NCBI RefSeq assembly: GCF_000016665.1
Contig: NC_009523.1
Span: forward strand, 3,100,001-3,164,000
DNA: 64,000 nucleotides
Source of the DNA: Roseiflexus sp. RS-1
GTDB lineage: Bacteria > Chloroflexota > Chloroflexia > Chloroflexales > Roseiflexaceae
Reading direction: 5' to 3'
Position 1 is the first letter of the stretch. Every line of letters begins with the position of its first letter. This document shows, in pieces, positions 24,719-58,045 of the stretch. The position numbers and the translations under genes are program-made. The notes beneath the pieces were generated by a model. It searched no databases. It saw only the letters and a list, made by a program, of their open reading frames with translations, and had not been told where the DNA came from.

Positions 24719-25075
24719 CTAGCCCGCGCAGGCGGGATTTGCCCCGGATGACCGATAGCCGATAGCCGATAGCCGATAGCCGATAGCCGATAGCCGATAG
24801 CCGATAGTCGATGGTCGAGAGGGTCACCGTTGGAGGTCGCGTGACGCGCAGGCGGGCTTCGCCCTGGATAGGCGATAGGCGATAGGCTCACTGCAGCCCG
24901 CGCAGGCGGGCTTCGCCTTGCATAGCCGAGGGCTGATGGTCTTTGAGTAATTATTCCGCTCTCGCCCGCGCAGGCGGGCTTCGCCTTGACTAGCCGAGGG
25001 GTTCACCCCGACGGCAAGAGGCGCATATCGGACTTAATTCTCAATCTCCACCATATGAGCACTGCGCTCCCTCTC
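24719..25075. repeat. Composite intergenic repeat: CCGATAG heptads and GCCCGCGCAGGCGGGC hairpins
   Basis: It holds about eight CCGATAG heptads (24750-24808), then three or four copies of GCCCGCGCAGGCGGGCTTCG hairpins, a GGTCTTTGAGTAA block, and a tail reading CGGACTTAATTCTCAATCTC. The same order, at lower identity, recurs at 48685-48965. No gene is seen; the small open frame here is built from the hairpins. Confidence 0.88.
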
Positions 25076-30710: not shown

Positions 30711-33700
30711 TCAGACCCGCCCCGTCGCCACTGCCAGGTTGAGGTCGAGCAGCCGCTGCACCACCGCGCGCTGCACCGCCGGCGCCATGCCGAAGCGCGT
30801 CTGCCCGCGCGCGTTCGCGTGGAAATCGTGCCCCGGATCGAGATCGTCCCAGCCGTAGCACGCCAGGATCGCCGCATCCAGCGCCGCGTGCAGCCGCCGC
30901 AGGTCTGCAATGTCGGCATCAAGGCAGGCGGGGTCGTGGAGCAGGTTGTACGTTTTCGTCAACCCGATCCGGCGCGCCTGCATCACCTCCCGGCGCCGCT
31001 CGTGGTACGCCGCTCCGATCTGCGCCGCATGCGCGAACGCCGGGTGCGCCAGCACCCGCGCCAGGTCGGGAGCAGCATCCTCCGCCGGCGGGAAGGGAAA
31101 CGTGGCGAAGCAGTCGGTGGGGGTGTAGCGCAGATCGGTGCGCAGACTGGACGCCTGGCGGCGCGCCCACGCCTCGTGCACGCCGGATTGCAACAGCGCG
31201 AAGTGATAGTCGTCGTCGAAGGCGAAGACGACCAGTTGCTCATTGTATATCCAACCCTTGGGAACAAACACCGGCGCATGCATCTCACTGATGCGACTCC
31301 GCGCCAGCACCCGGCGCAGCGGGGCGATGGCGTGACGCATGCCCGCGCGGTAGGCGCCGAACTGCCACCAGGCCGCGCGGTTGCGCGCGTCCCCCGGACC
31401 ACGCAGCCCCTCCCGCTCCGGCTTCACCCGCTCCTCCACGATCCGCAGCAGGTCGGGGTACTGCTGCGCCCGCGCCAGGTCCCAGTCGTGGAAGCAGATC
31501 ACCCATCGCCCCGGCTGCTGCGCCGGATGGGTGTTCAGGTCGTCGCCGTTCAGGTAGGGGAACAGGCAGTCAGCGTTGCGCGGGTCGCGCGCCAGCAGCG
31601 CCTCCGCCTCTGCCGCCTCCAGCACGAAGCCGAGACCACGCACGAAATCGCCGATGAACGCCTTGCCGTCGTTCTGGCGCAGGCGCGCCGGTTCGCCGTC
31701 CGGTTCGGCATCGAGCCGCGACGAGATCGCCGCAACCGGGTGGTCGTCGAGCAGCGCGCCGCCGTCTCCCCCAGTCCCCTCCTGCGTGCGGCGGGCGCGC
31801 GGCGCTTCAATGACGACCAGGTTGACTTCGACGCTCGCCTGTCCGGGCCAGCGCACGAAGCGGCGGGCGAACGCAATGCGCCCGCCCTGCGCCAGGATGA
31901 CCTTCAGCCCGCTTTCGCGCGTGTCCCCCTGCCCGATGGTGTTGGTGGCGATCATCCCCAGCCGCCCGCCGGGACGCAGCAGCGCGAACGCCCGCCGGAA
32001 GAACGCCGCGCAGAGGTCGGCTGTGCCGCCGAACGGCACCAGCGCCGCTTCCAGCCAGCGCCGGTACGCTTCGCCCGCGACGCCGCTGATGCGCAATCCC
32101 CCCATGAACGGCGGGTTGCCGAGGATGACATCGAACCCGCCTGCCGCCGCCGCGTCCGGGAACTCCAGCGACCAGTGGAAGAAGGCGCGCTCGTCGCGCG
32201 TGACGGTCACGAACGCTCCCTGGCGCGGGTCGCTCAGCGCGCCGTGCGTCAGCGCCTCCTGAACCGCCATCGTCGTCAGCGCCACCCCCACCACCCCCAT
32301 GCCCCCCCCGCGTGCGTGGGGGGTTGGCGGGGGGGACTGGGGGGGTGCGAAGGATTGGAAGAACGCCGCCGTCCACACGTCGCACGCCAGGCGCAGGCGG
32401 CGATAGGCGTCCTGGGTGATCACCCGTCGGTATGCGGCGCTCTTGGCATGCACCTGCTCCACCGTTCGATCCGGCATCGCGGCGACCTGATGCATCTGCG
32501 CCGCCAGGTCTGCCAGCGGCGCGGTGACGAACCCGTGGCGGAAGAGATCCATGCGCGCCTCGCGCGCGTTGCGCGCCTTGACCTGCCGCGCGTGGGCGCG
32601 GTCGTCGGTTCCCAGCGGACGGTAGGCGTCATCGGGAATGCCGGCTTCGAGCGCCTGCAGGTCGGCGACCCCCAGGAGCGAATCGCCGCAGCGGATGCGG
32701 TGGTCGAGAAAGGTGAGCGGCCTGCCCCGCGCATGCCCTTCCAGCCAGAGCGCGACGCGGCAGAGTTCGACCGCCAGCGGATTTTTGTCCACCCCGTACA
32801 GGCAGTGGGCAATCACGTCGCGCACTGCGTCACGGACGATCTCCGGGGCGGGGGCGGCGTCGCCGCTGCGGATGCGCGCCAGTTCGGTCCCCAGATGCCG
32901 CGCCGCCGCCAGCAGGAAATGCCCGCTGCCGCATGCCGGATCGAGCACGGTCAGTCCAAGGAGCGCCGCTTCCCGTTCGGCAGGTGTGGGGCATGGCGCA
33001 AGACGCGCCCGCAGCGCCGGCTCCAGCGCGTGCTGCACGAGCGGCGCCACCAGCTCCGGCGGAGTGTAGTGCGAGCCGGTGGCGCGCCGTTCGGCGCTGC
33101 GTGCGGCGAAGGCAACGACGGGAACCGCGCCGCGCCAGGCGATGGTCGGGTGCAGTTCGAGCAGACTTTCGTACACCGACCCCAGTTCTTCGGTGTCGAG
33201 CGCCGCATAGTTGATGCGGCGCGGCGGATCGCCGTACCAGGCGAGATGGCGGAAGGCGTGCAGCAGGTCGCGGTTGGTAATCACAGCGGCGTCGAGATCG
33301 ACGGGCGCAAACAGGTCGCCGTTGAGCGGCGCCGCGCCCAGCAGCGCGGCCAGCGCCGCATCGCTCACGATCTGGCGCAGCGTCTGGAACCCCAGCCAGA
33401 GGTCGACGTGATCGGTGAAGGCGCTGCGGCGCGTCAGGAGTCGCCGCAGTCGCCCGACGCCATAGTGCGCGTAGTGCGGGTCGTCGCTGATCAGCCCGCG
33501 ATCTTCGGCGGTCAGCAGGAAGAGCACGCGGTAGACGATGCGCAGCGCCTGGCGATACAGCGCAGCGGCAACGTCATCCGGGACCGGTTCGCCCGGCGGC
33601 GGGAGACGGAGCGCGGCGCGCAGCGCTCCGTTCGCCGGGTGCGCCAGGAAGCCGTTCGCCAGGATCAGGAGCGCCTGTTCCACGCCGTCGCGCAGGCGGT

Positions 33701-34442
33701 CGCGCACCCGTCCGCCCTGTTCCAGCGCGTGCTGATGGTAGCGTTCCAGCCAGCAGTCGCGCGCGTCCGCAGCGGTCTGCGGCAGGCGCGTGCGGTGGAT
33801 CAGCCGGTAGAGCGCGGCGAAGTCGGCGAAGCGCTGCTCATCGAGGATCTGCGCCAGGTCGCACTCGACATACGCCTGCCGCCGGAGGTACGTGCTGTTG
33901 CGCAGCAGACGCAGGGTGCGCCCGTTGGCGACCAGCCCCCACACCTGCTCGCTGCGGTTGAGATACTCCTGCACCAGCACGTGCGGCGCCATCCGCACCC
34001 CCCCGGTTCGGGAGGGTGCGGGCGGGACGCGCCCCAGGTCCTGGCGCACCCCGACGATATGCACCGGCGGGGCGTCGTCCGCAGCGCCAGCGCGGTGCGA
34101 AATGGCGAAGCGCGCCCCGTCGATCGCATACGGGTGCGGGTTGGCGTGCAGGTCGTAGCCGAGCAGACTGAGGAACGGGATGACCCAGGCATCGCGGGTG
34201 ATTGCGGTCGCCGGGTCATCGTCCGGCAGGCGCGCCAGGCGGCGGCGGAAGAGCGCCCACTGCGCCTGGGCGTCGGCGAAGGCGCCAGCGATCTCATCGG
34301 TGAGGGAGCGCGACCCGTCCAGCCCGAAATCGCGCGGTTGCTGCCCTGGCAGATCGCCGGCAAGCGCCGCGTCCAGAATGTCGGGACCAAGCAGACCGCC
34401 TTCGAGACGGATCGCCGGAGTTGGTGCGTGGATGTGACTCAT
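30711..34442 (-). CDS. Eco57I/DrmMI-type adenine DNA methylase
   Basis: This 1243-aa protein is predicted to methylate adenine in DNA. TVLDPACGSGHFLLAAARHL (motif I at about residues 500-508) binds S-adenosylmethionine. YGVDKNPLAVELCRVALWLE follows, and NPPFMGG (about 775) is the catalytic NPPF. An N-terminal region of about 450 residues without recognised nuclease motif (no PD-ExK seen) and a C-terminal target-recognition-like region complete it. Length and layout fit PglX/DrmMI and type IIG relatives. Its ATG overlaps the helicase stop by four bases (ATGA), so the two form one operon and probably one defence system. There is a large open frame on the opposite strand, a GC artefact. Confidence 0.85.
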   Translation of the reverse strand: MSHIHAPTPAIRLEGGLLGPDILDAALAGDLPGQQPRDFGLDGSRSLTDEIAGAFADAQAQWALFRRRLARLPDDDPATAITRDAWVIPFLSLLGYDLHANPHPYAIDGARFAISHRAGAADDAPPVHIVGVRQDLGRVPPAPSRTGGVRMAPHVLVQEYLNRSEQVWGLVANGRTLRLLRNSTYLRRQAYVECDLAQILDEQRFADFAALYRLIHRTRLPQTAADARDCWLERYHQHALEQGGRVRDRLRDGVEQALLILANGFLAHPANGALRAALRLPPPGEPVPDDVAAALYRQALRIVYRVLFLLTAEDRGLISDDPHYAHYGVGRLRRLLTRRSAFTDHVDLWLGFQTLRQIVSDAALAALLGAAPLNGDLFAPVDLDAAVITNRDLLHAFRHLAWYGDPPRRINYAALDTEELGSVYESLLELHPTIAWRGAVPVVAFAARSAERRATGSHYTPPELVAPLVQHALEPALRARLAPCPTPAEREAALLGLTVLDPACGSGHFLLAAARHLGTELARIRSGDAAPAPEIVRDAVRDVIAHCLYGVDKNPLAVELCRVALWLEGHARGRPLTFLDHRIRCGDSLLGVADLQALEAGIPDDAYRPLGTDDRAHARQVKARNAREARMDLFRHGFVTAPLADLAAQMHQVAAMPDRTVEQVHAKSAAYRRVITQDAYRRLRLACDVWTAAFFQSFAPPQSPPPTPHARGGGMGVVGVALTTMAVQEALTHGALSDPRQGAFVTVTRDERAFFHWSLEFPDAAAAGGFDVILGNPPFMGGLRISGVAGEAYRRWLEAALVPFGGTADLCAAFFRRAFALLRPGGRLGMIATNTIGQGDTRESGLKVILAQGGRIAFARRFVRWPGQASVEVNLVVIEAPRARRTQEGTGGDGGALLDDHPVAAISSRLDAEPDGEPARLRQNDGKAFIGDFVRGLGFVLEAAEAEALLARDPRNADCLFPYLNGDDLNTHPAQQPGRWVICFHDWDLARAQQYPDLLRIVEERVKPEREGLRGPGDARNRAAWWQFGAYRAGMRHAIAPLRRVLARSRISEMHAPVFVPKGWIYNEQLVVFAFDDDYHFALLQSGVHEAWARRQASSLRTDLRYTPTDCFATFPFPPAEDAAPDLARVLAHPAFAHAAQIGAAYHERRREVMQARRIGLTKTYNLLHDPACLDADIADLRRLHAALDAAILACYGWDDLDPGHDFHANARGQTRFGMAPAVQRAVVQRLLDLNLAVATGRV

Positions 34443-37348
34443 AGGCGTGTGTTGGCGCGTTCCAGTACGACCACTCCCAGCAGATCGGGCGGGAACTGCG
34501 GCGTCATCTCAAGCCCGCGCACCCGCAGCGCCACTGCCTGGCGGATGCGTTTGTGCGCTTCGGTCAGGTCGGCGGCGCGACGGTCGATCCACTGCCGGAT
34601 GCCGGACTGGATCGGATGGTCGTCGCCCCATCTTCCTCCCTGCACCGGGCGCCATTCACCAATGCGCGCGAGCGCCTGACGCAGGATGGTCTGCTTTTCT
34701 TCCAGCGGCATGTTGGCGGCGGGTCGGGCGGACGCCAGGAGACTCAGCGCTTCGCCATGGTCGAGCCAGTGCATCTCGCTGCCATGGTCGCGGTAGCCGA
34801 GCGCCAGCACTTCTTCGGACAGCACGGGTTGAGCGTTGGGATATTCGAGCATGTAGCGCACCCGCAGCAGCAGGATGGTCGTCGTTTCCTGCACCGCGTG
34901 CGTGCGGATCGCGCCGCAGCGCCGGGCAATCGCCGTCTCGGATCGTTCCAGCGCCTCTTCGAAGAGGAACTGCGCCAGCGCCATGACGAAGCGGTGGTTG
35001 CGCCCGACATACTCCGCACCCTCCGGCGTCGGCGAAATGAAACTGATCGACCAGAAGGGGTTGGCGCGGCGCGCGGCGGACGACGAAGAGTCGGGCAGTT
35101 CCATGCGAATAGCATCGGGCAGAGCACGCAGCACATCCGGCGCCAGGCTGACGCGGAAAACATCCGCGCGCCTCGGGTCTGGCGTGATCGGCAGGTTGAG
35201 GCGTTGGGCGGTTTCCAGCACAAAATCGCGCACGGCGGACGGATCGCCGAGCACTGCGTCGGTCGCTTCGAGTTCACGCTGCACTTCTTCGGGTTTCAGC
35301 GCGCGCTGAGCGAACCGGGTGCGATTGACCCGCTCGCGATCCACATCGCGATCCCAGCGTCGGTGCAACTCTTCAACCGCCGGTATGCCCAGGTCGAGGG
35401 TGAGTTGTGCGCCTGGCGTGCGCCGACCCCGGAGGAACAGCGCTTCGAGCACCGCCTGGGTGACGCTCTCGCTCTCTTCCGGCACCGGCACATACGTGCC
35501 GAGGGTGCGATGGATCGTGCGCGCTTTGTTGAGCAGCACATCGAGCACCGCGCCATCCACCGGATTGTCGCGCCCGAAAAAACGGATGACCCTGACACGC
35601 GGCGCCGGTTGCCCGTAGCGATCCACGCGCCCTTCGCGCTGCTCCAGGCGATTCGGGTTCCAGGGCAGATCGTAATGCACCACGGCGGTGAACAGCGACT
35701 GGAGGTTGACCCCTTCGGAGAGACAATCGGTTGCCACCAGCACCCGCGGACGGTCGGCGTCCAGTTCCGCAATTCGCGCCTGCCGCTCTTCGTCCCCCAT
35801 CCGCCCGGTCACACACGCAACCTGGACACCATCGGGCAGATCGCGCTGCACCTGATCGGCGACATACTCTGCGGTGGCGACGTAGCGACACCAGAGGATC
35901 GGGTGGAAGCCTTCATCGATCAGGTGGCGCGTTAACTCGACAGCGCGGCGCAGTTTGGCGTCGTGCTCCGATCCGTAGAGGTCGCGCGCCAGCCGCGCCA
36001 GGTCGCGCAACCGCCGCCGGTCGGCGTCCGGTAATGTTTCGACCGTCGCTTCCAGCGGCGGTGTCGGCGACTCGTCCGTTGCGCGTTCTTCGGTCACTTC
36101 AAACACAAATGGACGGAAATCCGCCTCTTCATCGCTATCAAACACCAGCGCGCCACGGCTGGCGAGGGTCGCAACCGCTGCTGCCGGACTCGACATCACG
36201 CAGCGCAGGAGCGAGAGCGCGCCCCAGGATCGCACCCGACGGCGGCGCGCGTCGAGGTGTTCACCGGTCTGCACGATCTCGAAACAAAACTGATAGGTGC
36301 GCTCAAAGAGACGACGGTAGCCATCGGACAATTCGTAGGTCTCGTCCTGCGGTTCGCGCTGCGGGAAACAGGTGATCGCTTCCCACCCCTGCTCGATGTC
36401 GCGGCGGGTGCGCTGCACGAAGTGGCGCGCCAGTTCGCTGCGTTGCGCATCACTCAACGCATCGAGGCGCCAGTCGGCGAACTCAGGACGCACCAGCCCC
36501 AGGAGTGATCGGAATGCCTCCTCGATACCGGAGTGCGGCGTGGCGGTCAGCAGGATGAGGTGGCGCCGCGGCTTCCTGGCGACATCCTGCACCAGGGCAT
36601 GGCGCTCCTGCTGACCGCGCCCCTGCGCCGCCGCTGCGCCGTGCGCCTCGTCAACGATCACCAGATCGGGGCAAAACTGAAGAAACTGGTGGCGATTCCG
36701 CTCGGTTTTGACAAAATCGATGCTGATCACCTGCACCGGGAACGACTCATAGATCGTTGCGCCGGGAGGAACCTGGCGCTCCAGCTGGCTGACCGTGCCA
36801 GAGCGGACGATCACCGCGTCCAGGTTGAACTTCTCCGCCAGTTCTTTTGACCACTGCTCACACAGCGCGGGCGGACAGAGGACGCAGAACCGACCGATCT
36901 CACCGCGGTCGAGCAGTTCACGGGCAACCAGCAGCGCCTCGATGGTCTTCCCCACACCGACGTCATCGGCGATAAACAATCGCACCGGATCGAGGCGCAG
37001 CGCCATCAGGAGCGGCACAAACTGATAGGTGCGCGGACGGATCGAGATGCGTCCAAGCGAACGAAACGGCGTGGCGCCTTCACGCAGCGACAGGCGGGCC
37101 GCCTGCCAGAGCAGATGCGCGCTGGCAGCGTCAGCAACGTGGTCGGCGTCCGGCGGAGGAAACGCAGCTGGCGTGATACGTTCCGAAGGCAACGTATAGC
37201 CGATCAGGTCGATCAGGCGACGGTAGAGAGTCAGGGTCTCATCATCACTGCCGGTGAGCGGGCGCAGCGTCACGTGATCGGGGGATGCCGAGGGGAGCAG
37301 CGCCCACAACCGCTGACGGAACCGTACAATTGAGCCGGGGTTGGTCAT
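34439..37348 (-). CDS. SNF2-type helicase of a methylase-linked defence pair (DrmD-like)
   Basis: This 969-aa protein starts at ATG 37348 (MTNPGSIVRFRQRLWALLPS). LFIADDVGVGKTIEALLVAR (Walker A at about 128-135), VIVDEAHGAAAA (DEAH at 233-236) and LLTATPHSGIEEAF form the first RecA half. HYDLPWNPNRLEQREGRVDRYGQ forms motif VI of the second half. The family is SNF2/RapA-like. It translocates on duplex DNA and, with the methylase, may discriminate unmodified DNA, as proposed for DISARM DrmD. No drmA, drmB or drmC follows. A promoter with TTGAAC-N18-TATCAT lies just upstream (37389-37418). Its first codons and promoter are duplicated at 41016-41103 and 43025-43226. Confidence 0.85.
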   Translation of the reverse strand: MTNPGSIVRFRQRLWALLPSASPDHVTLRPLTGSDDETLTLYRRLIDLIGYTLPSERITPAAFPPPDADHVADAASAHLLWQAARLSLREGATPFRSLGRISIRPRTYQFVPLLMALRLDPVRLFIADDVGVGKTIEALLVARELLDRGEIGRFCVLCPPALCEQWSKELAEKFNLDAVIVRSGTVSQLERQVPPGATIYESFPVQVISIDFVKTERNRHQFLQFCPDLVIVDEAHGAAAAQGRGQQERHALVQDVARKPRRHLILLTATPHSGIEEAFRSLLGLVRPEFADWRLDALSDAQRSELARHFVQRTRRDIEQGWEAITCFPQREPQDETYELSDGYRRLFERTYQFCFEIVQTGEHLDARRRRVRSWGALSLLRCVMSSPAAAVATLASRGALVFDSDEEADFRPFVFEVTEERATDESPTPPLEATVETLPDADRRRLRDLARLARDLYGSEHDAKLRRAVELTRHLIDEGFHPILWCRYVATAEYVADQVQRDLPDGVQVACVTGRMGDEERQARIAELDADRPRVLVATDCLSEGVNLQSLFTAVVHYDLPWNPNRLEQREGRVDRYGQPAPRVRVIRFFGRDNPVDGAVLDVLLNKARTIHRTLGTYVPVPEESESVTQAVLEALFLRGRRTPGAQLTLDLGIPAVEELHRRWDRDVDRERVNRTRFAQRALKPEEVQRELEATDAVLGDPSAVRDFVLETAQRLNLPITPDPRRADVFRVSLAPDVLRALPDAIRMELPDSSSSAARRANPFWSISFISPTPEGAEYVGRNHRFVMALAQFLFEEALERSETAIARRCGAIRTHAVQETTTILLLRVRYMLEYPNAQPVLSEEVLALGYRDHGSEMHWLDHGEALSLLASARPAANMPLEEKQTILRQALARIGEWRPVQGGRWGDDHPIQSGIRQWIDRRAADLTEAHKRIRQAVALRVRGLEMTPQFPPDLLGVVVLERANTRL

Positions 37349-37388
37349 ATGCGCATCAATCTCATACAAATGCGTCAGACGTGTGGCT

Positions 37389-37418
37389 ATGATACCATGA
37401 TCGACGCTGAATGTTCAA
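37389..37418 (-). promoter_or_regulatory. Promoter of the helicase-methylase operon
   Basis: On the minus strand TTGAAC (37413-37418) and TATCAT (37389-37394) are 18 bp apart, giving a leader of about 35 bases before ATG 37348. The same block is preserved at 43197-43226. Confidence 0.7.
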
Positions 37419-37424
37419 TCGAAG

Positions 37425-37545
37425 GGGGGAGGTGTCTGTGCCCCCTCATCCCCCCGACCCCCTTCTCCCACACGGGGAGAAGGGGGAGTGTGGACGTCCT
37501 GATGCCTGAAACGGGCGATGGTACGCAGGCACTCGACCACGCGCC
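37425..37545. repeat. Dispersed palindromic element, copy next to the helicase promoter
   Basis: GTGTCTGTGCCCCCTCATCC, then CCCCCTTCTCCCACACGGGG and AGAAGGGGG, then GACGTCCTGATGCCTGAAAC. The copy at 43320-43420 has the same left and right neighbours, showing that helicase 5' end and element were duplicated together. Confidence 0.85.
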
Positions 37546-37566
37546 TGCCTGCGCGGGCGCGGCGCA

Positions 37567-38600
37567 GCAGCGATTGCAATCGCCCCTGAAGGGCCTCCGA
37601 CCGCGCGCCCGCCGGCGCGGGCGATCCTCCTTCACCGCCGCACGCACCAGCGATTGCAATCGCCCCTGGCGGGCCTCCGGCCGCTCGCCCGCCAGCGCGG
37701 GCGATCCTCCTTCACCGCCTCACACGCCAGCGATTGAAATCGCCCCTGGCGGGCCTTCGACTGGTCGCCCGCCGGCGCGGGCGAGGAAGCAGCGATTGAC
37801 ATCGCCCCTGGCGGGCCTCCGGCCGCTCGCCCGCCTGCGCGGGCGATCCTCCTTCACCGCCTCACACGCCAGCGATTGACATCGCCCCTGGCGGGCTTCC
37901 GGCCGGTCACCCGCTGGCGCGGGCGCGGCAGGACCCGCGATTGAAATCGCCCCTCAAGGGCCTCCAGCCGGTCGCCCGCCTGCGCGGGCGATCCTCCTTC
38001 ACCGCCTCACGCACCAGCGATTGACATCGCCCCTGGCGGGCCTCCGGCCGCTCGCCCGCCGGCGCGGGCGATCCTCCTTCACCGCCTCACGCACCAGCGA
38101 TTGAAATCGCCCCTCAAGGGCCTTCGACCGGTCGCCCGCCTACGCGGGCGATCCTTCTTCACCGCCTCACGCACCAGCGATTGAAATCGCCCCTGGCGGG
38201 CTTCCGGCCGCTCGCCCGCCGGCGCGGGCGAGGAAGCAGCGATTGACATCGCCCCTGGCGGGCCTTCGACCGGTCGCCCGCCGGCGCGGGCGAGGAAGCA
38301 GCGATTGACATCGCCCCTGGCGGGCCTTCGACCGGTCGCCCGCCTGCGCGGGCGATCCTCCTTCACCGCCTCACACGCCAGCGATTGACATCGTCCCTGG
38401 CGGGCTTCCGGCCGCTCGCCCGCCGGCGCGGGCGATCCTCCTTCACCGCCTCACACGCCAGCGATTGACATCGTCCCTGGCGGGCTTCCGGCCGCTCGCC
38501 CGCCGGCGCGGGCGATCCTCCTTCACCGCCTCACGCACCAGCGATTGACATCGCCCCTGGCGGGCCTCCGGCCGGTCACCCGCTGGCGCGGGTGAGGAAG
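37567..38600. repeat. Left REP-like array (about 14 units)
   Basis: The unit core AGCGATTG(A/C)(A/C)ATCGCCCC occurs at about 37570, 37649, 37731, 37792, 37871, 37941, 38015, 38095, 38177, 38238, 38301, 38380, 38460 and 38541. After each come GGCGGGCCTCCGGCC and a hairpin GCCCGCCGGCGCGGGCG. Spacing is about 80 bp when GATCCTCCTTCACCGCCTCA is present and about 61-63 bp when it is absent. GCGAT/ATCGC is an inverted pair. The array stops at the end of the transposase gene. It is not CRISPR because the intervals are themselves repeated. Confidence 0.92.
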
Positions 38601-38604
38601 CGTC

Positions 38605-39036
38605 CTATTCATCACTCTTTATTTCCTCGAAGGTTTCTTCAAACTCTGGCACAAGTTCACCGCTCCGATGATGCTCTTTCTGGCGTTTGATGTACTCCTT
38701 GATCCTGGCAACGTCCCAGCGGCTGACAGTGAACGCGCCGTAACTGCCTTGCCACTTGAATTGCGCCGACGGCCGCAACGTCTCATTGACAAAACGTGAT
38801 GACACGCCTTTGACGTGTTTGAGCAAATCGGCGATGGTGATGGTGGTTGGGAAGATCACCAACAAGTGTACATGGTCCTCCGTACCGTTGAGCGCGAGAA
38901 CGGTGCAACCCTGTTTCCGAGCCTCGCTCTCGATGTTGCGGTACAGACGTCGCTCGATGTCCGGCGTGATGAGCGGGAGGCGATCCCACGTCGCCCAGAC
39001 CAGGTGAAGGAAGAGAGCAAGTTTGTTGCGTCGCAT
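38605..39036 (-). CDS. REP-associated tyrosine transposase (RAYT, Y1/HUH)
   Basis: The 143-aa product begins MRRNKLALFLHLVWATWDRLP (ATG 39036; GGAGG five bases upstream). HVHLLV (residues 55-60) is the HUH metal motif, and Tyr115 in RIKEYIKRQKEHH is the single catalytic tyrosine. The Y1 (IS200-like) fold nicks and joins single-stranded DNA at a hairpin and would act on the flanking palindromes. It is the sole coding gene between about 14 REP-like units on one side and about 34 on the other, the typical setting of a domesticated RAYT rather than of IS200, which has hairpin ends only. No TnpB is present. Confidence 0.9.
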   Translation of the reverse strand: MRRNKLALFLHLVWATWDRLPLITPDIERRLYRNIESEARKQGCTVLALNGTEDHVHLLVIFPTTITIADLLKHVKGVSSRFVNETLRPSAQFKWQGSYGAFTVSRWDVARIKEYIKRQKEHHRSGELVPEFEETFEEIKSDE

Positions 39037-39059
39037 GGTGTCCTCCATGTGCCACAGCG

Positions 39060-40975
39060 GACGGAGCAGCGTCCACGAAGGTGGACGCCCGGCGGAACGC
39101 CCGCACGGCGCGATTTCCAATCGCCAGCCCCTCCCCCGGCGGAACGCCCGCACGGCGCGATGTCAATCGCCAGCCCCGCAGCGCACAGGGCAGCGTCCAC
39201 GAAGGTGGACGCCCGGCGGCACGCCCGCGCGGCGCGATGTCAATCGCCAGCCCTTCAGCGGCACGCCCGCGCGGCGCAATTTCCAATCGCCAGCCCCGCA
39301 GCGCACAGAGCAGCGTCCACGAAGGTGGACGCCCGGCGGCACGCCCGCGCGGCGCGATTTCCAATCGCCAGCCCTTCAGCGACACGCCCGCACGGCGCGA
39401 TGTCAATCGCCAGCCCTTCAGCAGAACGCCCGCGCGGCGCGATTTCCAATCGCCAGCCCTTCAGCGGCACGCCCGCACGGCGCGATTTCCGATCGCCAGC
39501 CCCGCAGCGCACAGGGAAGCGTCCACGAAGGTGGACGCCCGGCGGCACGCCCGCGCGGCGCGATTTCAATCGCCAGCCCTTCAGCAGAACGCCCGCGCGG
39601 CGCGATTTCCAATCGCCAGCCCTTCAGCGGCACGCCCGCGCGGCGCGATTTCAATCGCCAGCCCTTCAGCGACACGCCCGCACGGCGCGATGTCAATCGC
39701 CAGCCCCGCAGCGCACAGGGAAGCGTCCACGAAGGTGGACGCCCGGCGGCACACCCGCGCGGCGCGATTTCCAATCGCCAGCCCTTCAGCAGAACGCCCG
39801 CACGGCGCGATTTCCAATCGCCAGCCCCGCAGCGCACAGGGCAGCGTCCACGAAGGTGGACGCCCGGCGGCACGCCCGCGCGGCGCGATTTCCAATCGCC
39901 AGCCCTTCAGCGACACGCCCGCACGGCGCGATTTCCAATCGCCAGCCCCGCAGCGCACAGGGCAGCGTCCACGAAGGTGGACGCCCGGCGGCACGCCCGC
40001 GCGGCGCGATGTCAATCGCCAGCCCTTCAGCGGCACGCCCGCGCGGCGCGATTTCCAATCGCCAGCCCCGCAGCGCACAGAGCAGCGTCCACGAAGGTGG
40101 ACGCCCGGCGGCACGCCCGCGCGGCGCGATTTCCAATCGCCAGCCCTTCAGCGACACGCCCGCACGGCGCGATGTCAATCGCCAGCCCCTCCCCCGGCGG
40201 CACACCCGCGCGGCGCGATTTCCAATCGCCAGCCCTTCAGCGGCACGCCCGCACGGCGCGATTTCCGATCGCCAGCCCCGCAGCGCACAGGGAAGCGTCC
40301 ACGAAGGTGGACGCCCGGCGGCACGCCCGCGCGGCGCGATGTCAATCGCCAGCCCTTCAGCGGCACGCCCGCACGGCGCGATGTCAATCGCCAGCCCCGC
40401 AGCAGACGGGGCGGCGTCCACGAAGGTGGACGCCCGGCGGCACGCCCGCGCGGCGCGATGTCAATCGCCAGCCCTTCAGCGACACGCCCGCACGGCGCGA
40501 TTTTCAATCGCCAGCCCCGCAGCAGACGGGGCGGCGTCCACGAAGGTGGACGCCCGGCGGCACGCCCGCGCGGCGCGATTTCAATCGCCAGCCCTTCAGC
40601 AGAACGCCCGCGCGGCGCGATTTCCAATCGCCAGCCCTTCAGCGGCACGCCCACGCGGCGCGATTTCAATCGCCAGCCCTTCAGCGACACGCCCGCACGG
40701 CGCGATGTCAATCGCCAGCCCCGCAGCGCACAGGGAAGCGTCCACGAAGGTGGACGCCCGGCGGTACGCCCGCACGGCGCGATTTCCAATCGCCAGCCCT
40801 TCAGCGAAACGCCCGCGCGGCGCGATTTCCAATCGCCAGCCCCGCAGCAGACGGGGCGGCGTCCACGAAGGTGGACGCCCGGCGGCACGCCCGCGCGGCG
40901 CGATTTCAATCGCCAGCCCTTCAGCGGCACGCCCGCACGGCGCGATTTCAATCGCCAGCCCCTCTCCTCTCACAC
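39060..40975. repeat. Right REP-like array (about 34 units)
   Basis: Units of GGCGCGAT(TT/GT)(C)CAATCGCCAGCCC occur about every 40-80 bp from 39110 to 40960. Short units are joined by CTTCAGCGGCACGCCCGC; longer ones insert CGCAGCGCACAGGGCAGCG and the hairpin CGTCCACGAAGGTGGACG. Read on the other strand the core is GGCGATTGA(A/C)ATCGC, the same as the left array, so the two arrays face each other around the transposase gene. All forward frames stay open for 1.9 kb, producing false proteins of over 600 residues. Confidence 0.93.
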
Positions 40976-41015
40976 CCGCCAACCACCGCTTGCCACAGCG
41001 GACGGGGCAGCGTCC

Positions 41016-41103
41016 GCTGACGGAACCGCACAATTGAGCCGGGATTGGTCATATGCGCATCAGTCTTATACAAATGTGTCGGACGTGTGGCTATGATACC
41101 AGG
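41016..41103 (-). pseudogene. Helicase 5'-end fragment, copy 2
   Basis: It matches the start of the helicase gene and its upstream region (CGCTGACGGAACCGCACAAT and on to GGCTATGATACC). Read on the minus strand it begins MTNPGSIVRFRQR and then runs into REP DNA. The TATCAT -10 survives but the -35 is lost, because homology ends at 41103. Confidence 0.85.
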
Positions 41104-41119
41104 CGCGCAATTCCGGCGG

Positions 41120-42961: not shown

Positions 42962-43024
42962 TCAATATGTCCTGGCAGGTCTTCTGGTCGTTGCGCGTGA
43001 TAACTCACCACCACATCTCCAGAC

Positions 43025-43226
43025 GACAGTAGAGAGGCAGAGTCTCATCATTGCTGCCGGTGAGCGGGCGCAACGTCACGTGATTGGGGGATGCCGAGGG
43101 GAGCCGCGCTCACAACCGCTGACGGAACCGCACGATCGAGCCTGGATTGGTCATATGCGCATCAGTCTTATACCAATGCGTCAGGCATGGGGCTATGATA
43201 CCATGATCGACGCTGAATGTTCAACC
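43025..43226 (-). pseudogene. Helicase 5'-end fragment with complete promoter, copy 3
   Basis: It matches 37217-37418 throughout: about 43 codons of the helicase, its ATG (43154) and the TTGAAC-N18-TATCAT promoter (43197-43226). A change converts the Trp codon after RFRQRL to TGA, so only a 14-residue peptide could be made. The promoter is intact and lies about 235 bp upstream of the ABC exporter. Confidence 0.85.
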
Positions 43227-43257
43227 GTCGGAGAGATGACCGGTTTTCGGCATTCCC

Positions 43258-43420
43258 GTGCGCGTTTGCCCCCTCATCCCCCCTGCCCCCTTCTCCCACA
43301 CGGAGAGAAGGGGGAGGCGTCTGTGCCCCCTCATCCCCCCTGCCCCCTTCTCCCACACGGGGAGAAGGGGGCGTGTGGTCGTCCTGATGCCTGAAACGGG
43401 AAGATGGTACGCAGGGACTT
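43258..43420. repeat. Dispersed palindromic element, two head-to-tail copies
   Basis: GCCCCCTCATCCCCCCTGCC, then CCCTTCTCCCACACGG(G/A)G and AGAAGGGGG appear twice (43268-43315 and 43324-43372), followed by GTCCTGATGCCTGAAACGGG. The arms can form hairpins. Confidence 0.88.
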
Positions 43421-48684: not shown

Positions 48685-48965
48685 TATAGCCGATAGGCGA
48701 TAGCCGATAGCTGATAGCCGATAGCCGATAGCCGATGGTCGATAGGGTCGCTGTTGGAGTTCGTGTTACGCGCAGGAGGGCGTTGCCTTAGGCGCACGCG
48801 AGGGGGTGGTGGTCTAGCGGAGGGCTTCCGGTCTTTGAGTAAATAAGCCGGTATAGCCCGCGCAGACGGGCTTTGCCCTGGCTAGCCGAGGGCAAAGCCC
48901 GACGGCTCGTTCGGTATAGCGGACTAAATGCTCAATCTCCATTGGCCCGACGGCACGAGGCGCAG
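48685..48965. repeat. Composite intergenic repeat, second copy
   Basis: CCGATAG heptads (48688-48745), TTACGCGCAGGAGGGCGTTG, GGTCTTTGAGTAA, GCCCGCGCAGACGGGC and GGACTAAATGCTCAATCTCC appear in the same order as at 24719-25075. The copy is diverged. No gene is seen; the stretch 48644-49426 as a whole holds only repeats and hairpins. Confidence 0.85.
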
Positions 48966-51614: not shown

Positions 51615-54600
51615 GAAGCGACCACTGCCCCGCAATGAAGGGGATTGAAGCACGGGGGCGGGGTCTACCCCGCCCGATCCAATCTGGGAAGCGACCACTG
51701 CCCCGCAATGAAGGGGATTGAAGCCTGGAGGGACGGGTCGTTTGCCAGGATGTTCCTAAGGCGAAGCGACCACTGCCCCGCAATGAAGGGGATTGAAGCT
51801 TCGCACCACGCCCGCCACACGGCGGCGATTCCGGGAAGCGACCACTGCCCCGCAATGAAGGGGATTGAAGCTCAGTGTTGGCTCCGGACCAAACTGCGGA
51901 CTGTGCGTGAAGCGACCACTGCCCCGCAATGAAGGGGATTGAAGCCGCGCTCGCTGTCCTCGCCGCATGGCGGGAAGCAGCGGGAAGCGACCACTGCCCC
52001 GCAATGAAGGGGATTGAAGACGAGCTCACTCTCGGAGATGCTCCGCGCGATCTCGGTGAAGCGACCACTGCCCCGCAATGAAGGGGATTGAAGTGACCTG
52101 GCGCCGCCGGACGCGGCGGGTGCGGCGGACGCCGAAGCGACCACTGCCCCGCAATGAAGGGGATTGAAGTTTGGTTCGCACTCGTAACCCGGATATGGAT
52201 CATACGAAGCGACCACTGCCCCGCAATGAAGGGGATTGAAGTCCTGCGACGTCAGCGACAGCGCGACGCCCAGCGCCTGGAAGCGACCACTGCCCCGCAA
52301 TGAAGGGGATTGAAGTTCAGCGCCTCCGCGTCTCCCTCGACCTTCTTCAGCTGAGAAGCGACCACTGCCCCGCAATGAAGGGGATTGAAGAGCGCCTCAA
52401 TCAACGTGCTCTCGTCGACAACCTGCGGAGAAGCGACCACTGCCCCGCAATGAAGGGGATTGAAGACCTCCTTCTTGTTCATTTAGAAGTGCAAGCCAGA
52501 GCGAGAAGCGACCACTGCCCCGCAATGAAGGGGATTGAAACCCGCCCGTCTCCGCGACCAGGCGCTGCGCCTGGTCGCGGAAGCGACCACTGCCCCGCAA
52601 TGAAGGGGATTGAAACTCGTCGGAGACCGCGGCCAGTTCTTTCCGAATGCGTTCGAAGCGACCACTGCCCCGCAATGAAGGGGATTGAAACATTAACGTT
52701 CGGTCCCATTCCATATATACGGTCCGTGGGAAGCGACCACTGCCCCGCAATGAAGGGGATTGAAACAACACTAAAGTGGAGGGAGGCGTATAAGTGACTA
52801 CGCGAAGCGACCACTGCCCCGCAATGAAGGGGATTGAAACCCGCATCCGACTCGCACTTGGCTAACTTCGCCTGAAGGAAGCGACCACTGCCCCGCAATG
52901 AAGGGGATTGAAACGATACCGGTCCGTCATGTTTCTCCTCCTTTGCCCGCGAAGCGACCACTGCCCCGCAATGAAGGGGATTGAAACGAACGACCCGGCG
53001 CTCGGCGTCGCGCGCGCGCCTCTCGAAGCGACCACTGCCCCGCAATGAAGGGGATTGAAACGCGACGCCGAGCGCCGGGCCGCGCGGCTTGGCGCGGGAA
53101 GCGACCACTGCCCCGCAATGAAGGGGATTGAAACAGCGGACCGCGCCGCGGTAGACCTCCACGGCGTCATCGAAGCGACCACTGCCCCGCAATGAAGGGG
53201 ATTGAAACAAGACGACGAGGAAGATAGCAGCCACCAGGCATCCTTGAAGCGACCACTGCCCCGCAATGAAGGGGATTGAAACCAACTCGCGCCGCCGCTT
53301 CACGCTGCGCGCGCTCCGGAAGCGACCACTGCCCCGCAATGAAGGGGATTGAAACACAACGTTGCAGCGTTCCTCGGCGAGGTCGGCTCCGAGAAGCGAC
53401 CACTGCCCCGCAATGAAGGGGATTGAAACCGGACCCCCCAGGCGAGGGACAACCTCACGCCCTGCAGAAGCGACCACTGCCCCGCAATGAAGGGGATTGA
53501 AACGTACGGCGGGGAGATCCCCATGGCCGGCGCCCCTCCCCGGAGAAGCGACCACTGCCCCGCAATGAAGGGGATTGAAACACGGTCAACGACATGCCCG
53601 GTCTTCACCGTCCCCAATATGAAGCGACCACTGCCCCGCAATGAAGGGGATTGAAACAAATAAAAGAAGAATGCGTGTTGTGACGGCGAAGGGAAGCGAC
53701 CACTGCCCCGCAATGAAGGGGATTGAAACTTTCGATTTGGTTCTCGAGTCGCTGGCGACGCTCTGGAGAAGCGACCACTGCCCCGCAATGAAGGGGATTG
53801 AAACAGGCACGCCGTGCGGCGGCGCCAGTCTTGTCCAGCTGGAAGCGACCACTGCCCCGCAATGAAGGGGATTGAAACAACTAGCCAAGGCGGAATTTGA
53901 TGCCGAGGCGCTGCTGAAGAAGCGACCACTGCCCCGCAATGAAGGGGATTGAAACAGGGGGTCCCCCCCCACAGCGTTTCGCAGCCGCTCGGAAGCGACC
54001 ACTGCCCCGCAATGAAGGGGATTGAAACTTTCGCAGCCGCTCGATGATCGCCTCCGCCTCCGTGAGGAAGCGACCACTGCCCCGCAATGAAGGGGATTGA
54101 AACGATATGGATCTATTTTTTGGAGGTACGCGGCGTAGCATGAAGCGACCACTGCCCCGCAATGAAGGGGATTGAAACTTCGCCCGCGCTTCCGCCTCGG
54201 CCCGAGCGGCCGCGAAGCGACCACTGCCCCGCAATGAAGGGGATTGAAACTTCTTTGCCCCGAAACCCCGCCCGCCTTCGGCAGACGGAAGCGACCACTG
54301 CCCCGCAATGAAGGGGATTGAAACTTTCTTCCGCCTTCTTCTCTTCCGCCTTCTTGTTCTTGAAGCGACCACTGCCCCGCAATGAAGGGGATTGAAACGC
54401 TTCCTGCTGCGCCCGTTGCTCTGCCTCCGCGCGGGAGAGAAGCGACCACTGCCCCGCAATGAAGGGGATTGAAACCTGCCTCCGCGCGGGCCGCCGCTTC
54501 CTGCTGCGCGCGCGAAGCGACCACTGCCCCGCAATGAAGGGGATTGAAACTTTTCTCCTCCTTGCCCCCCCGCCGTGCGGCGGGATGGAAGCGACCACTG

Positions 54601-57600
54601 CCCCGCAATGAAGGGGATTGAAACTAAACTCATCTGGCGTACCCAGAGTCGAGTGAGTGCGAGAAGCGACCACTGCCCCGCAATGAAGGGGATTGAAACG
54701 CTGCCAGTCGGTTCCACTGTCTGGTAACCGTCTTCCAGAAGCGACCACTGCCCCGCAATGAAGGGGATTGAAACCTTCTCGCTTTGGATGACGACCTTAA
54801 TCCTCCCTCGAAGCGACCACTGCCCCGCAATGAAGGGGATTGAAACCTGCTCCTCCGCAACCGCACGGGCTCCCGCCTCCGCCCAGAAGCGACCACTGCC
54901 CCGCAATGAAGGGGATTGAAACGTACGGCGGGGAGATCCCCATGGCCGGCGCCCCTCCCCGGAGAAGCGACCACTGCCCCGCAATGAAGGGGATTGAAAC
55001 ACGGTCAACGACATGCCCGGTCTTCACCGTCCCCAATATGAAGCGACCACTGCCCCGCAATGAAGGGGATTGAAACAAATAAAAGAAGAATGCGTGTTGT
55101 GACGGCGAAGGGAAGCGACCACTGCCCCGCAATGAAGGGGATTGAAACTTTCGATTTGGTTCTCGAGTCGCTGGCGACGCTCTGGAGAAGCGACCACTGC
55201 CCCGCAATGAAGGGGATTGAGACTCCGCCTCCTCCACGAGCGTCCACGCCGGGCGCGCCTCGAAGCGACCACTGCCCCGCAATGAAGGGGATTGAGACGC
55301 GAGGGGGAGATCGGGCCGCGCAGCGGGCGCAGATGAAGCGACCACTGCCCCGCAATGAAGGGGATTGAGACGCGTCGTCCTCCTCGCCCCGCAGCCGGTC
55401 GAGGAGGTGAAGCGACCACTGCCCCGCAATGAAGGGGATTGAGACCTGCAGCAGCAGGGGGGGCGGGATCACGAATGATCCCAGAAGCGACCACTGCCCC
55501 GCAATGAAGGGGATTGAGACCAGACGATATCCTCGTCCGCGCCGGCGACCGCGCGCGAAGCGACCACTGCCCCGCAATGAAGGGGATTGAGACGTCGCCA
55601 GACGCTGCTGGCGCTCGATGCGACCTGGACGAAGCGACCACTGCCCCGCAATGAAGGGGATTGAGACCCTGTTTTGTTGCAGGTACGCCTGTGTATACAG
55701 CAAATGGAAGCGACCACTGCCCCGCAATGAAGGGGATTGAGACTAGCTCACGATTGTACATTTAGAGTGCATCGCCAAAGGAAGCGACCACTGCCCCGCA
55801 ATGAAGGGGATTGAGACATAGTCACAACTAGGCTAAGGCACCCTTCAAGCGCAAGAAGCGACCACTGCCCCGCAATGAAGGGGATTGAGACCTGGTGGGG
55901 TTAATCGACCGGGATCCGGAGCGCAGGAAGCGACCACTGCCCCGCAATGAAGGGGATTGAGACACCGCCGCCCTTCGCACTCGTAACCCGTACGTGTAAC
56001 GAAGCGACCACTGCCCCGCAATGAAGGGGATTGAGACCGGCTTCCCGCGCCGCCTCCGCGCGCCACGCCCGCCACGAAGCGACCACTGCCCCGCAATGAA
56101 GGGGATTGAGACAACGCGCCCCCGGCGGCGCCGGGAGCGGGGGAGGGACAAGAAGCGACCACTGCCCCGCAATGAAGGGGATTGAGACTCCTTGCCCCCC
56201 CGCCGTGCGGCGAGGCGGGCATTCAACATGAAGCGACCACTGCCCCGCAATGAAGGGGATTGAGACACGATGTCGCGGGAGGACCTCGCCCGATCCAGAT
56301 TGAAGCGACCACTGCCCCGCAATGAAGGGGATTGAGACCTCCCGGACCCCCTCTCCCGATGCCGCAGCATCATTGGAAGCGACCACTGCCCCGCAATGAA
56401 GGGGATTGAGACACGGCGAGGCGCGCCGCGGACCCGCCGGCGCGCGCCGGAGAAGCGACCACTGCCCCGCAATGAAGGGGATTGAGACCTGCGAGACGGC
56501 GTCTCTCAGCACAACTAAGGCGTTCCGAAGCGACCACTGCCCCGCAATGAAGGGGATTGAGACTCGACGAGCGTGCGCTCGTCGACACGCTTCACGATGA
56601 AGCGACCACTGCCCCGCAATGAAGGGGATTGAGACGCGCCTGCGCCTCCGCATGCGCCCGCCATACGGCGAGAAGCGACCACTGCCCCGCAATGAAGGGG
56701 ATTGAGACTCGCAGACGGCGTGCCAGAGGTCATCGTTGAGCGCCAGGAAGCGACCACTGCCCCGCAATGAAGGGGATTGAGACAAGATCTCCTCGATGTC
56801 GTCCATACTCCCTCCTTTGAAGCGACCACTGCCCCGCAATGAAGGGGATTGAGACACGGCGAGCGCTGCGACAACCAGCGCCGTCGTCGAGAGAGAAGCG
56901 ACCACTGCCCCGCAATGAAGGGGATTGAGACTGGTGGTCCTCCTTGCTGCCCCCCGCCTTGCGGCGAGCGAAGCGACCACTGCCCCGCAATGAAGGGGAT
57001 TGAGACGAGATGATGACTCCGACTTCCATGTGGTGGTCCTCCTTGAAGCGACCACTGCCCCGCAATGAAGGGGATTGAGACACGGGTCGTTTTCCAACAC
57101 GTGCCGCAGGCGCTGGAAGCGACCACTGCCCCGCAATGAAGGGGATTGAGACGTCTCCGGCGCTGCCGCCGCCGCCGCCGCCGCGTCCGGAAGCGACCAC
57201 TGCCCCGCAATGAAGGGGATTGAGACTAGACGAAGTGCCTTGAGGGGAAAAGGAGCAAAGTCAAGAAGCGACCACTGCCCCGCAATGAAGGGGATTGAGA
57301 CAACTATCCGTCCAACTTACTAACTCACCAACAGCCTTAGAAGCGACCACTGCCCCGCAATGAAGGGGATTGAGACATTAGCATAAAAATAACCGCTGCT
57401 AACGCAGCCAGCAAGAAGCGACCACTGCCCCGCAATGAAGGGGATTGAGACATCTAATATAAGGATAGCGTCGTCTAATCGGGATACCGAAGCGACCACT
57501 GCCCCGCAATGAAGGGGATTGAGACATGACTTCCATCTCTTTTTCCTCCTTGCCCCCCCGCCTGAAGCGACCACTGCCCCGCAATGAAGGGGATTGAGAC

Positions 57601-58045
57601 TCGGAGGTCGCGTCCAGCCCCTTGCGGAGCTGGACGGGAAGCGACCACTGCCCCGCAATGAAGGGGATTGAGACGAAACCCCGCCCGCCTTCGGCGGGGC
57701 GGGGCTGACACGAAGCGACCACTGCCCCGCAATGAAGGGGATTGAGACCCCCGTTGATCCCACATTGGAGGTTGCACCCCCCGAGTCGAAGAAGCGACCA
57801 CTGCCCCGCAATGAAGGGGATTGAGACGCCAAGGACAACCTAACTCCGTGGAGGTCCGGGTCCGAAGCGACCACTGCCCCGCAATGAAGGGGATTGAGAC
57901 CGTCGCGCGCCGCAAGCGCGGCGACGACGGCGACAGCCTGAAGCGACCACTGCCCCGCAATGAAGGGGATTGAGACACGAGGATGACAAGCCGCCACCCG
58001 GGCGGCTCGTCGAGAGAAGCGACCACTGCCCCGCAATGAAGGGGA
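51615..58045 (+). CRISPR. CRISPR array, 87 repeats (last one truncated), 86 spacers
   Basis: The repeat is 37 bp: GAAGCGACCACTGCCCCGCA followed by ATGAAGGGGATTGAAAC. Starts run from 51615 to 58016 at 72-78 bp intervals, giving spacers of about 35-41 bp. The 3' end defines three blocks: ATTGAAG then a variable base (repeats 1-12), ATTGAAAC (13-48, from 52505) and ATTGAGAC (49-86, from 55187). Repeat 87 (58016-58045) breaks off after GAAGGGGA. The ATTGAAAC end is common in I-B, I-D and III types, so the type is not decided. No cas gene is in the window. Spacers 26-29 (53467-53767 with repeats) recur as 45-48 (54886-55186). Confidence 0.98.

Follow-up and report, generated by a model that had tools for sequence, protein, structure and literature searches.

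The window considered here, a 64,000-nucleotide stretch at positions 3,100,001-3,164,000 of the Roseiflexus sp. RS-1 genome (a single contig of 5,801,598 bases), contains a Y1 (HUH) transposase gene enclosed by two arrays of palindromic units (Table 1). A sequence-only reading had described about 48 units in mirror-oriented arrays around a single Y1 gene, and both the layout and the number hold, as we count 14 units on the forward strand and 34 on the reverse strand, 48 together. The genes beside the left array (30711-37369) resemble a defence pair, comprising a DrmMI-like methylase (PADLOC E 5e-232) and a DpdE/DrmD-like SNF2 helicase (E 5e-186 and 3e-87).

Table 1. Features of the locus, in window positions, and of related elements elsewhere in the genome. 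R1 is the covariance model described in the text.
Feature	Position	Strand	Description
88-nt host sequence, helicase gene start region	37310..37397	+	a direct repeat of it lies past the right array
Segment missing from sister species G065 at the orthologous site	37525..41107	.	about 75 nt of other sequence there
Left array	37567..38596	+	14 two-hairpin units; R1 matches on + only
Y1 (HUH) transposase gene, 143 aa	38605..39036	-	TnpA-Y1 class 1, subclass 1.2 signature
Right array	39063..40962	-	34 outer hairpins; 24 R1 matches, all on -
Second copy of the 88-nt host sequence, 93%	41014..41101	+	related sequence also at 43020-43316
163-bp MITE-like elements	L013, L015, L018, L019		GTAACTNCTCAGGC ends and 8-bp target duplications; some tandem, with the duplication common to neighbours

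The left outer cores, 14 on the forward strand, span 37570-38541, are of the type GCGATTG(A/C)AATCGC and recur at periods of mainly 80 or 62 nt. The outer hairpin here is GCGATTGAMATCGC, and the inner hairpin GCCCGC-CNGC-GCGGGC follows every one of the cores (14/14). On the right, 34 outer cores on the reverse strand span 39124-40955; the inner hairpin CGTCCACCTTCGTGGACG is present in 13 of these 34 units, and the remaining 21, short units, measure 42-47 nt. The 5' tag of the right array is GGGCTG, and the left-array tags are mostly CCA or GCA. Left and right units give 54-nt inverted matches of about 72-76% identity and have one common layout, which makes the arrays mirror images of each other. 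The same core is thus found on both sides, as the sequence-only reading had it; what it took for a separate accessory hairpin is the second stem of a single two-stem unit. The core 14-mer has 86 matches in the genome against 0 for a reversed control, and both arrays are far above chance expectation. When units are folded as single-stranded DNA, a check proposed with the earlier reading, two full left units (z -3.1 and -3.6) and one full right unit stand out from shuffled sequences (all three within z -3.1 to -3.6), another full right unit stands out less (z -1.7), and one short right unit folds no better than its shuffles (z 0.6). An Rfam search of the arrays returned no match.

The protein encoded between the arrays matches PF01797 (E 2e-23) and passes the cut-off of the NCBIfam IS200/IS605 model (71 bits, cut-off 55), which is also matched by 30/30 aligned homologues, while it falls below that of the RAYT model (21 bits, cut-off 80). 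The HVH motif and the tyrosine picked out by the sequence-only reading are present, the former at residues 55-57, and across 12 diverse homologues H55, H57, W95, Q96, Y115, Q119, H122 and H123 are invariant. The protein has YIKRQKEHH, as against the Y--xNP of RAYTs. An AlphaFold model (pLDDT 89.9) has its best structure matches in the ISDra2, IS200 and IS608 TnpA proteins (about 1e-8), with E. coli TnpA-REP (4er8) at 9e-5, and sequence profiles match IS200/IS605-type structures only. Model scores, motifs and structure matches together indicate that the enzyme is class 1, IS200-type, and not a RAYT. Within class 1, the WQ motif, Y---Q--HH and a length of about 148 aa (the family median is 148) mark subclass 1.2, which was described as mostly confined to Cyanobacteria and Bacteroidetes and is entered as REP = ‘no’ in Table 1 of Quentin et al. 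2018 (PMC6006769); our protein is assigned to the subclass 1.2 type by motif and length only. The earlier attribution to the RAYTs does not survive the RAYT model score and the subclass 1.2 signature, nor the near absence of the GT[AG]G tag of canonical REPs, which occurs in 2/112 candidate flanking units. Also absent is the IS200/IS605 (1.1) trait of many near-identical copies with subterminal hairpins in direct layout, the ends here being inverted, multiplied units. The genome holds two Y1 genes, 34% identical to each other, and the only other one (L014 3276-3689; genome 907790-908182) sits within palindromic arrays of a different sequence.

In G065, from the same genus, the flanking sequence runs collinear with the window at 95% identity as far as position 37524 and the match resumes at 41108, so that the 3.6 kb with the arrays and the gene is missing from the orthologous site; neither a Y1 homologue nor the core was found in G065. 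The nearest proteins (63-81% identical) come mostly from Anaerolineae and other Chloroflexota outside the genus, which favours gain of the locus in this genome over its loss in G065. Derivatives lie elsewhere on the chromosome. At 3,070,073-3,070,742, 67 kb away, a second copy has 4 right-type and 4 left-type units, with the first ~15 codons of the gene fused to its end between the two sets, and is an internal-deletion derivative; a gene-less right-type array is found at 3,780,903. The number of units beside one gene is extreme, as the sequence-only reading held, but it is not unique. In Ca. Thermoflexus japonica (L064; protein 63% identical) the gene lies within about 2.3 kb of such repeats, in an array of similar scale, and giant arrays therefore recur.

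We asked how widely such units accompany homologous genes, with 80 named loci fetched and 76 analysed (Cyanobacteria, Chloroflexota and others). The upstream and downstream flanks give an inverted match with a score of at least 14 at 77% of the 75 loci with usable flanks and at 2.6% of 502 control positions of the same geometry, although the controls are mostly probably coding, so part of this contrast may be one of intergenic against coding sequence. The segment matched between the flanks is a two-hairpin unit, in which a linker separates an outer hairpin, whose loop is TGAA-like, from an inner hairpin with the loop CTNC. The cyanobacterial unit is roughly CCGG-GCGATTGGAAATCGC-GGCTACACAGACGA-AACCCACCTTCGTGGGTT with 14 nt of linker and flanks the Y1 gene directly; linkers in Chloroflexota units frequently measure 20-25 nt and frequently include a small middle stem. 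A homologue branch with a DERYVWD C-terminus (L053-L056) showed no clear units.

A first count of hairpin pairs at these loci did not separate orientations, so a covariance model, R1, was built from 20 units (Cyanobacteria, Anaerolineae and others) with no Roseiflexus sequence among them. Both-side changes occur in 9/12 of its base pairs, and pairing is 99.6%, a figure partly by construction since the training units were picked as perfect hairpins. Over the 76 loci, training loci included, R1 gives 285 matches at E <= 0.01, and a unit lies within 600 nt of the gene at 66/76 loci and on both sides at 57/76. Match density is 9.0/kb within 100 nt of the gene and 0.04-0.21/kb beyond 500 nt, and the nearest unit points inward, toward the gene, in 85/123 cases (p = 2.7e-5). 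Inward-pointing units on each side of the gene are thereby shown, by comparison, to be the basic arrangement across phyla. Applied to the window, R1 is an independent test: all 4 matches in the left array are on the forward strand and all 24 in the right array on the reverse strand (E 0.0009 to 0.06), so that single scores are weak and the orientation is consistent, as predicted. The rest of the 64-kb window has 4 matches; isolated R1-matched two-hairpin units lie on the reverse strand at 24891-25012 and 48851-48903. Genome-wide, at least 150 R1-type units are dispersed.

The association is specific to one type of Y1 gene. Among 30 Y1 loci collected by a separate Pfam search of 17 cyanobacterial genomes, flanking R1 matches were present at 9/11 subclass 1.2 loci, and 0/19 subclass 1.1-type (IS200) loci had a match within about 1.5 kb, where 13 of the 19 were typed by a Y---Q motif without HH and 6 by Pfam-search rank only. 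Among 149 Cyanobacteriales genomes, units (R1, E <= 1e-6) occur in 40/48 that bear the gene and in 24/101 in which it was not detected (Fisher p = 5.5e-12, with phylogeny ignored). Units clearly outlast the gene in some genomes. The dependence of units on the gene that the sequence-only reading anticipated is accordingly mixed, with this co-occurrence (phylogeny again ignored) on one side, and on the other the 24 genomes with no gene detected, together with a Roseiflexus sister genome, G068, that carries units and in which the gene was likewise not detected. Subclass 1.2 genes have units at most loci tested, which is opposite to the REP = ‘no’ of Quentin et al. 2018 (PMC6006769), and subclass 1.2-type members also include proteins from Chloroflexota and from records under the labels Gemmatimonadetes, Poribacteria and Abditibacteriaceae. 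A literature search that lacked most subscription papers and all preprints yielded nothing on the unit sequences and no report of REP-like partners of subclass 1.2, so the association of this subclass with two-hairpin units appears to be unreported.

The core is not confined to the locus, a question that the earlier reading had raised; about 17 further genomic places carry it, for the most part inside a different element. Most of these matches sit in a 163-bp element in which two units face each other as a REPIN-like dimer between 14-bp terminal inverted repeats, GTAACTNCTCAGGC. Of the 12 bounded copies, 8 adjoin target duplications of 8 bp; these 8 come from four independent places, and two of those places are tandem arrays. 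The terminal sequence was found with a perfect match at 163-bp elements only, and no autonomous partner with these ends was seen elsewhere in the genome. Terminal repeats together with 8-bp target duplications suggest that a DDE-type transposase, and not the Y1 enzyme, probably dispersed the copies in this genome, and the same features led us to drop Y1 as their mover. Palindromic units do belong with the Y1 gene, as had been proposed, but the accompanying idea of amplification by the transposase gains no support from these dispersed copies, which lie inside elements of the DDE-MITE type.

A comparison of related strains gives a divided picture: G065 is without gene and core, and G068 carries 54 cores, with the Y1 gene not detected. 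The G068 elements inspected resemble the 163-bp elements but carry other terminal repeats of about 20 bp, the Roseiflexus element end sequences being GTAACTNCTCAGGC and GGTSCAGGCATGA; the two MITE types thus have unrelated ends and the same internal two-unit layout. All 8 G068 first halves compared are closest to the left units of the window (78-84%), and the second half, in 4 copies where its outer core is intact, clearly resembles the right units most (84-87% vs 68-69%). The second half of L158 is nearly equal in its matches (76% and 78%), and L156, L159 and L162 have no recognised core in the second half. A dimer without the gene thus also shows the left-right pairing of the window, whereas at the window locus the gene sits between the two halves of that pairing. 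Terminal repeats of either MITE kind were not seen at the window locus itself.

Taken together, these observations make it probable, in our judgement, that the locus represents a REPtron-like element whose Y1 enzyme belongs to class 1 (subclass 1.2 type), whose ends consist of two-hairpin units and which has been amplified locally to an extreme degree. Its structure would be [two-hairpin unit]n - tnpA(Y1, subclass 1.2) - [inverted two-hairpin unit]n, in which the units are the putative cognate ends of the class 1 enzyme and each end unit has presumably been multiplied head to tail in this genome. The enzyme may act at the replication fork, where it would recognise the hairpin in its single-stranded form, cut next to it through Tyr115 and rejoin strands. 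Head-to-tail units on one strand would offer equivalent cut sites, and we propose that strand transfer between them, with slippage and unequal recombination, could on this account lengthen or shorten the arrays. Cleavage of the units by Y1, and its part in array growth, is a prediction from sequence; the growth may have come about by strand transfer, slippage or unequal recombination. Gene-less two-unit derivatives might then be carried passively inside DDE-type MITEs.

It is conceivable that the enzyme has little to do with the arrays as they stand, and that slippage and unequal recombination built them, with Y1 a bystander or the founder of the first unit only. We regard this as possible, if on the doubtful side. 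Multi-unit blocks are copied at 95-97%, the block duplications of the right array (97% over 300 nt) are explicable by recombination alone, four left-type units at L021 keep an exact 81-nt period, and the 163-bp MITE-like element also forms tandem arrays in the same genome. Such growth nevertheless leaves unexplained both why, in several phyla, subclass 1.2 genes are accompanied by units that share one architecture and why 1.1-type genes lack them, and it is compatible with the REPtron-like interpretation as a mechanism of array growth only. The units could instead have begun as parts of DDE-type MITEs into which a Y1 gene inserted by chance, in keeping with the target duplications beside the GTAACTNCTCAGGC termini and with the about 20-bp terminal repeats of the G068 copies. 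This is unlikely, as neither kind of terminal repeat is seen at the window locus, two MITE types with unrelated ends share the same internal two-unit layout, and cyanobacterial units directly flank the Y1 gene; the systematic association with Y1 across phyla argues against it as a general account, although it may hold for dispersal in Roseiflexus. We give very little credence to a domesticated hairpin array with a host function in transcription insulation or nucleoid organisation beside DISARM-like genes: the arrays do have a DrmD/DpdE-like helicase gene on one side and an ABC transporter gene on the other, but the locus is absent in the closest relative (G065), the gene family is patchy, and a decayed copy is present. 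Least credible is a canonical REP/RAYT locus, with a class 2 TnpA-REP and GT[AG]G-tagged REPs, that is merely very large, for although REP-like hairpins inverted around a Y1 gene are the RAYT-defining layout (PMC2817692) and 4er8 is among the structure matches, membership is ruled out by the model scores, by YIKRQKEHH in place of Y--xNP, by profiles that match IS200/IS605-type structures only, and by the missing tag.

The REPtron-like interpretation places the locus among several known systems without identity to any of them. With the RAYT/TnpA-REP systems and their REPs, REPINs and BIMEs, or REPtrons (PMC2817692, PMC3116915), it shares a Y1 HUH gene between inverted hairpin units, related units that are both dispersed and clustered, and REPIN-like inverted dimers of two units; it differs in its class 1 rather than class 2 enzyme, in the absence of the GT[AG]G tag, and in having two hairpins per unit and up to 34 head-to-tail cores on one side. 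Subclass 1.2 (PMC6006769) agrees in protein length (143 aa vs a median of 148), in WQ and Y---Q--HH, in low copy number and in its occurrence in Cyanobacteria, whereas units at most loci, and members beyond Cyanobacteria and Bacteroidetes, depart from the published description. The subclass 1.1 elements of the IS200/IS605 family (IS608, ISDra2) have the same fold and catalytic residues, carry hairpins at their ends and provide the best structure matches, but the ends here are inverted, multiplied two-hairpin units, of a kind present at 0/19 1.1-type loci. TIRYTs and their TIRtrons, with ‘double palindromic TIRs’ (PMC3733652), likewise place a Y1 gene between inverted repeats, possibly double palindromes, that form repeat families; by their description they are set apart as RAYT-like proteins with their own signatures.

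More generally, we suggest tentatively, as a proposal that is quite possible but falls short of likely, that subclass 1.2 Y1 enzymes, together with their two-hairpin units, constitute another REPtron-like lineage apart from the RAYTs in several phyla, in which the enzyme would itself amplify its cognate units into long head-to-tail arrays by single-strand transfer and unrelated DDE MITEs would have captured and dispersed the dimers. The origin and mobility of REPs are an open question, and most of the attention so far has gone to class 2 RAYTs and their GTAG tags. Should subclass 1.2 have two-hairpin partners of its own, the IS200 lineage would be another in which REP-like systems arose or diversified, and a candidate enzyme would be at hand for a large class of cyanobacterial and Chloroflexota hairpin repeats. 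The enzyme-unit pair is small, and the assays of single-strand cleavage and strand transfer established for TnpA-REP could be applied to it directly.

Repeats of other kinds also lie in the window. A different dispersed repeat of ~88 bp at 37442-37529 has many copies here and in same-genus genomes, and a very long CRISPR-like array with the repeat GAAGCGACCACTGCCCCGCAATGAAGGGGATTGAAAC occupies ~6.4 kb at 51615-58045.
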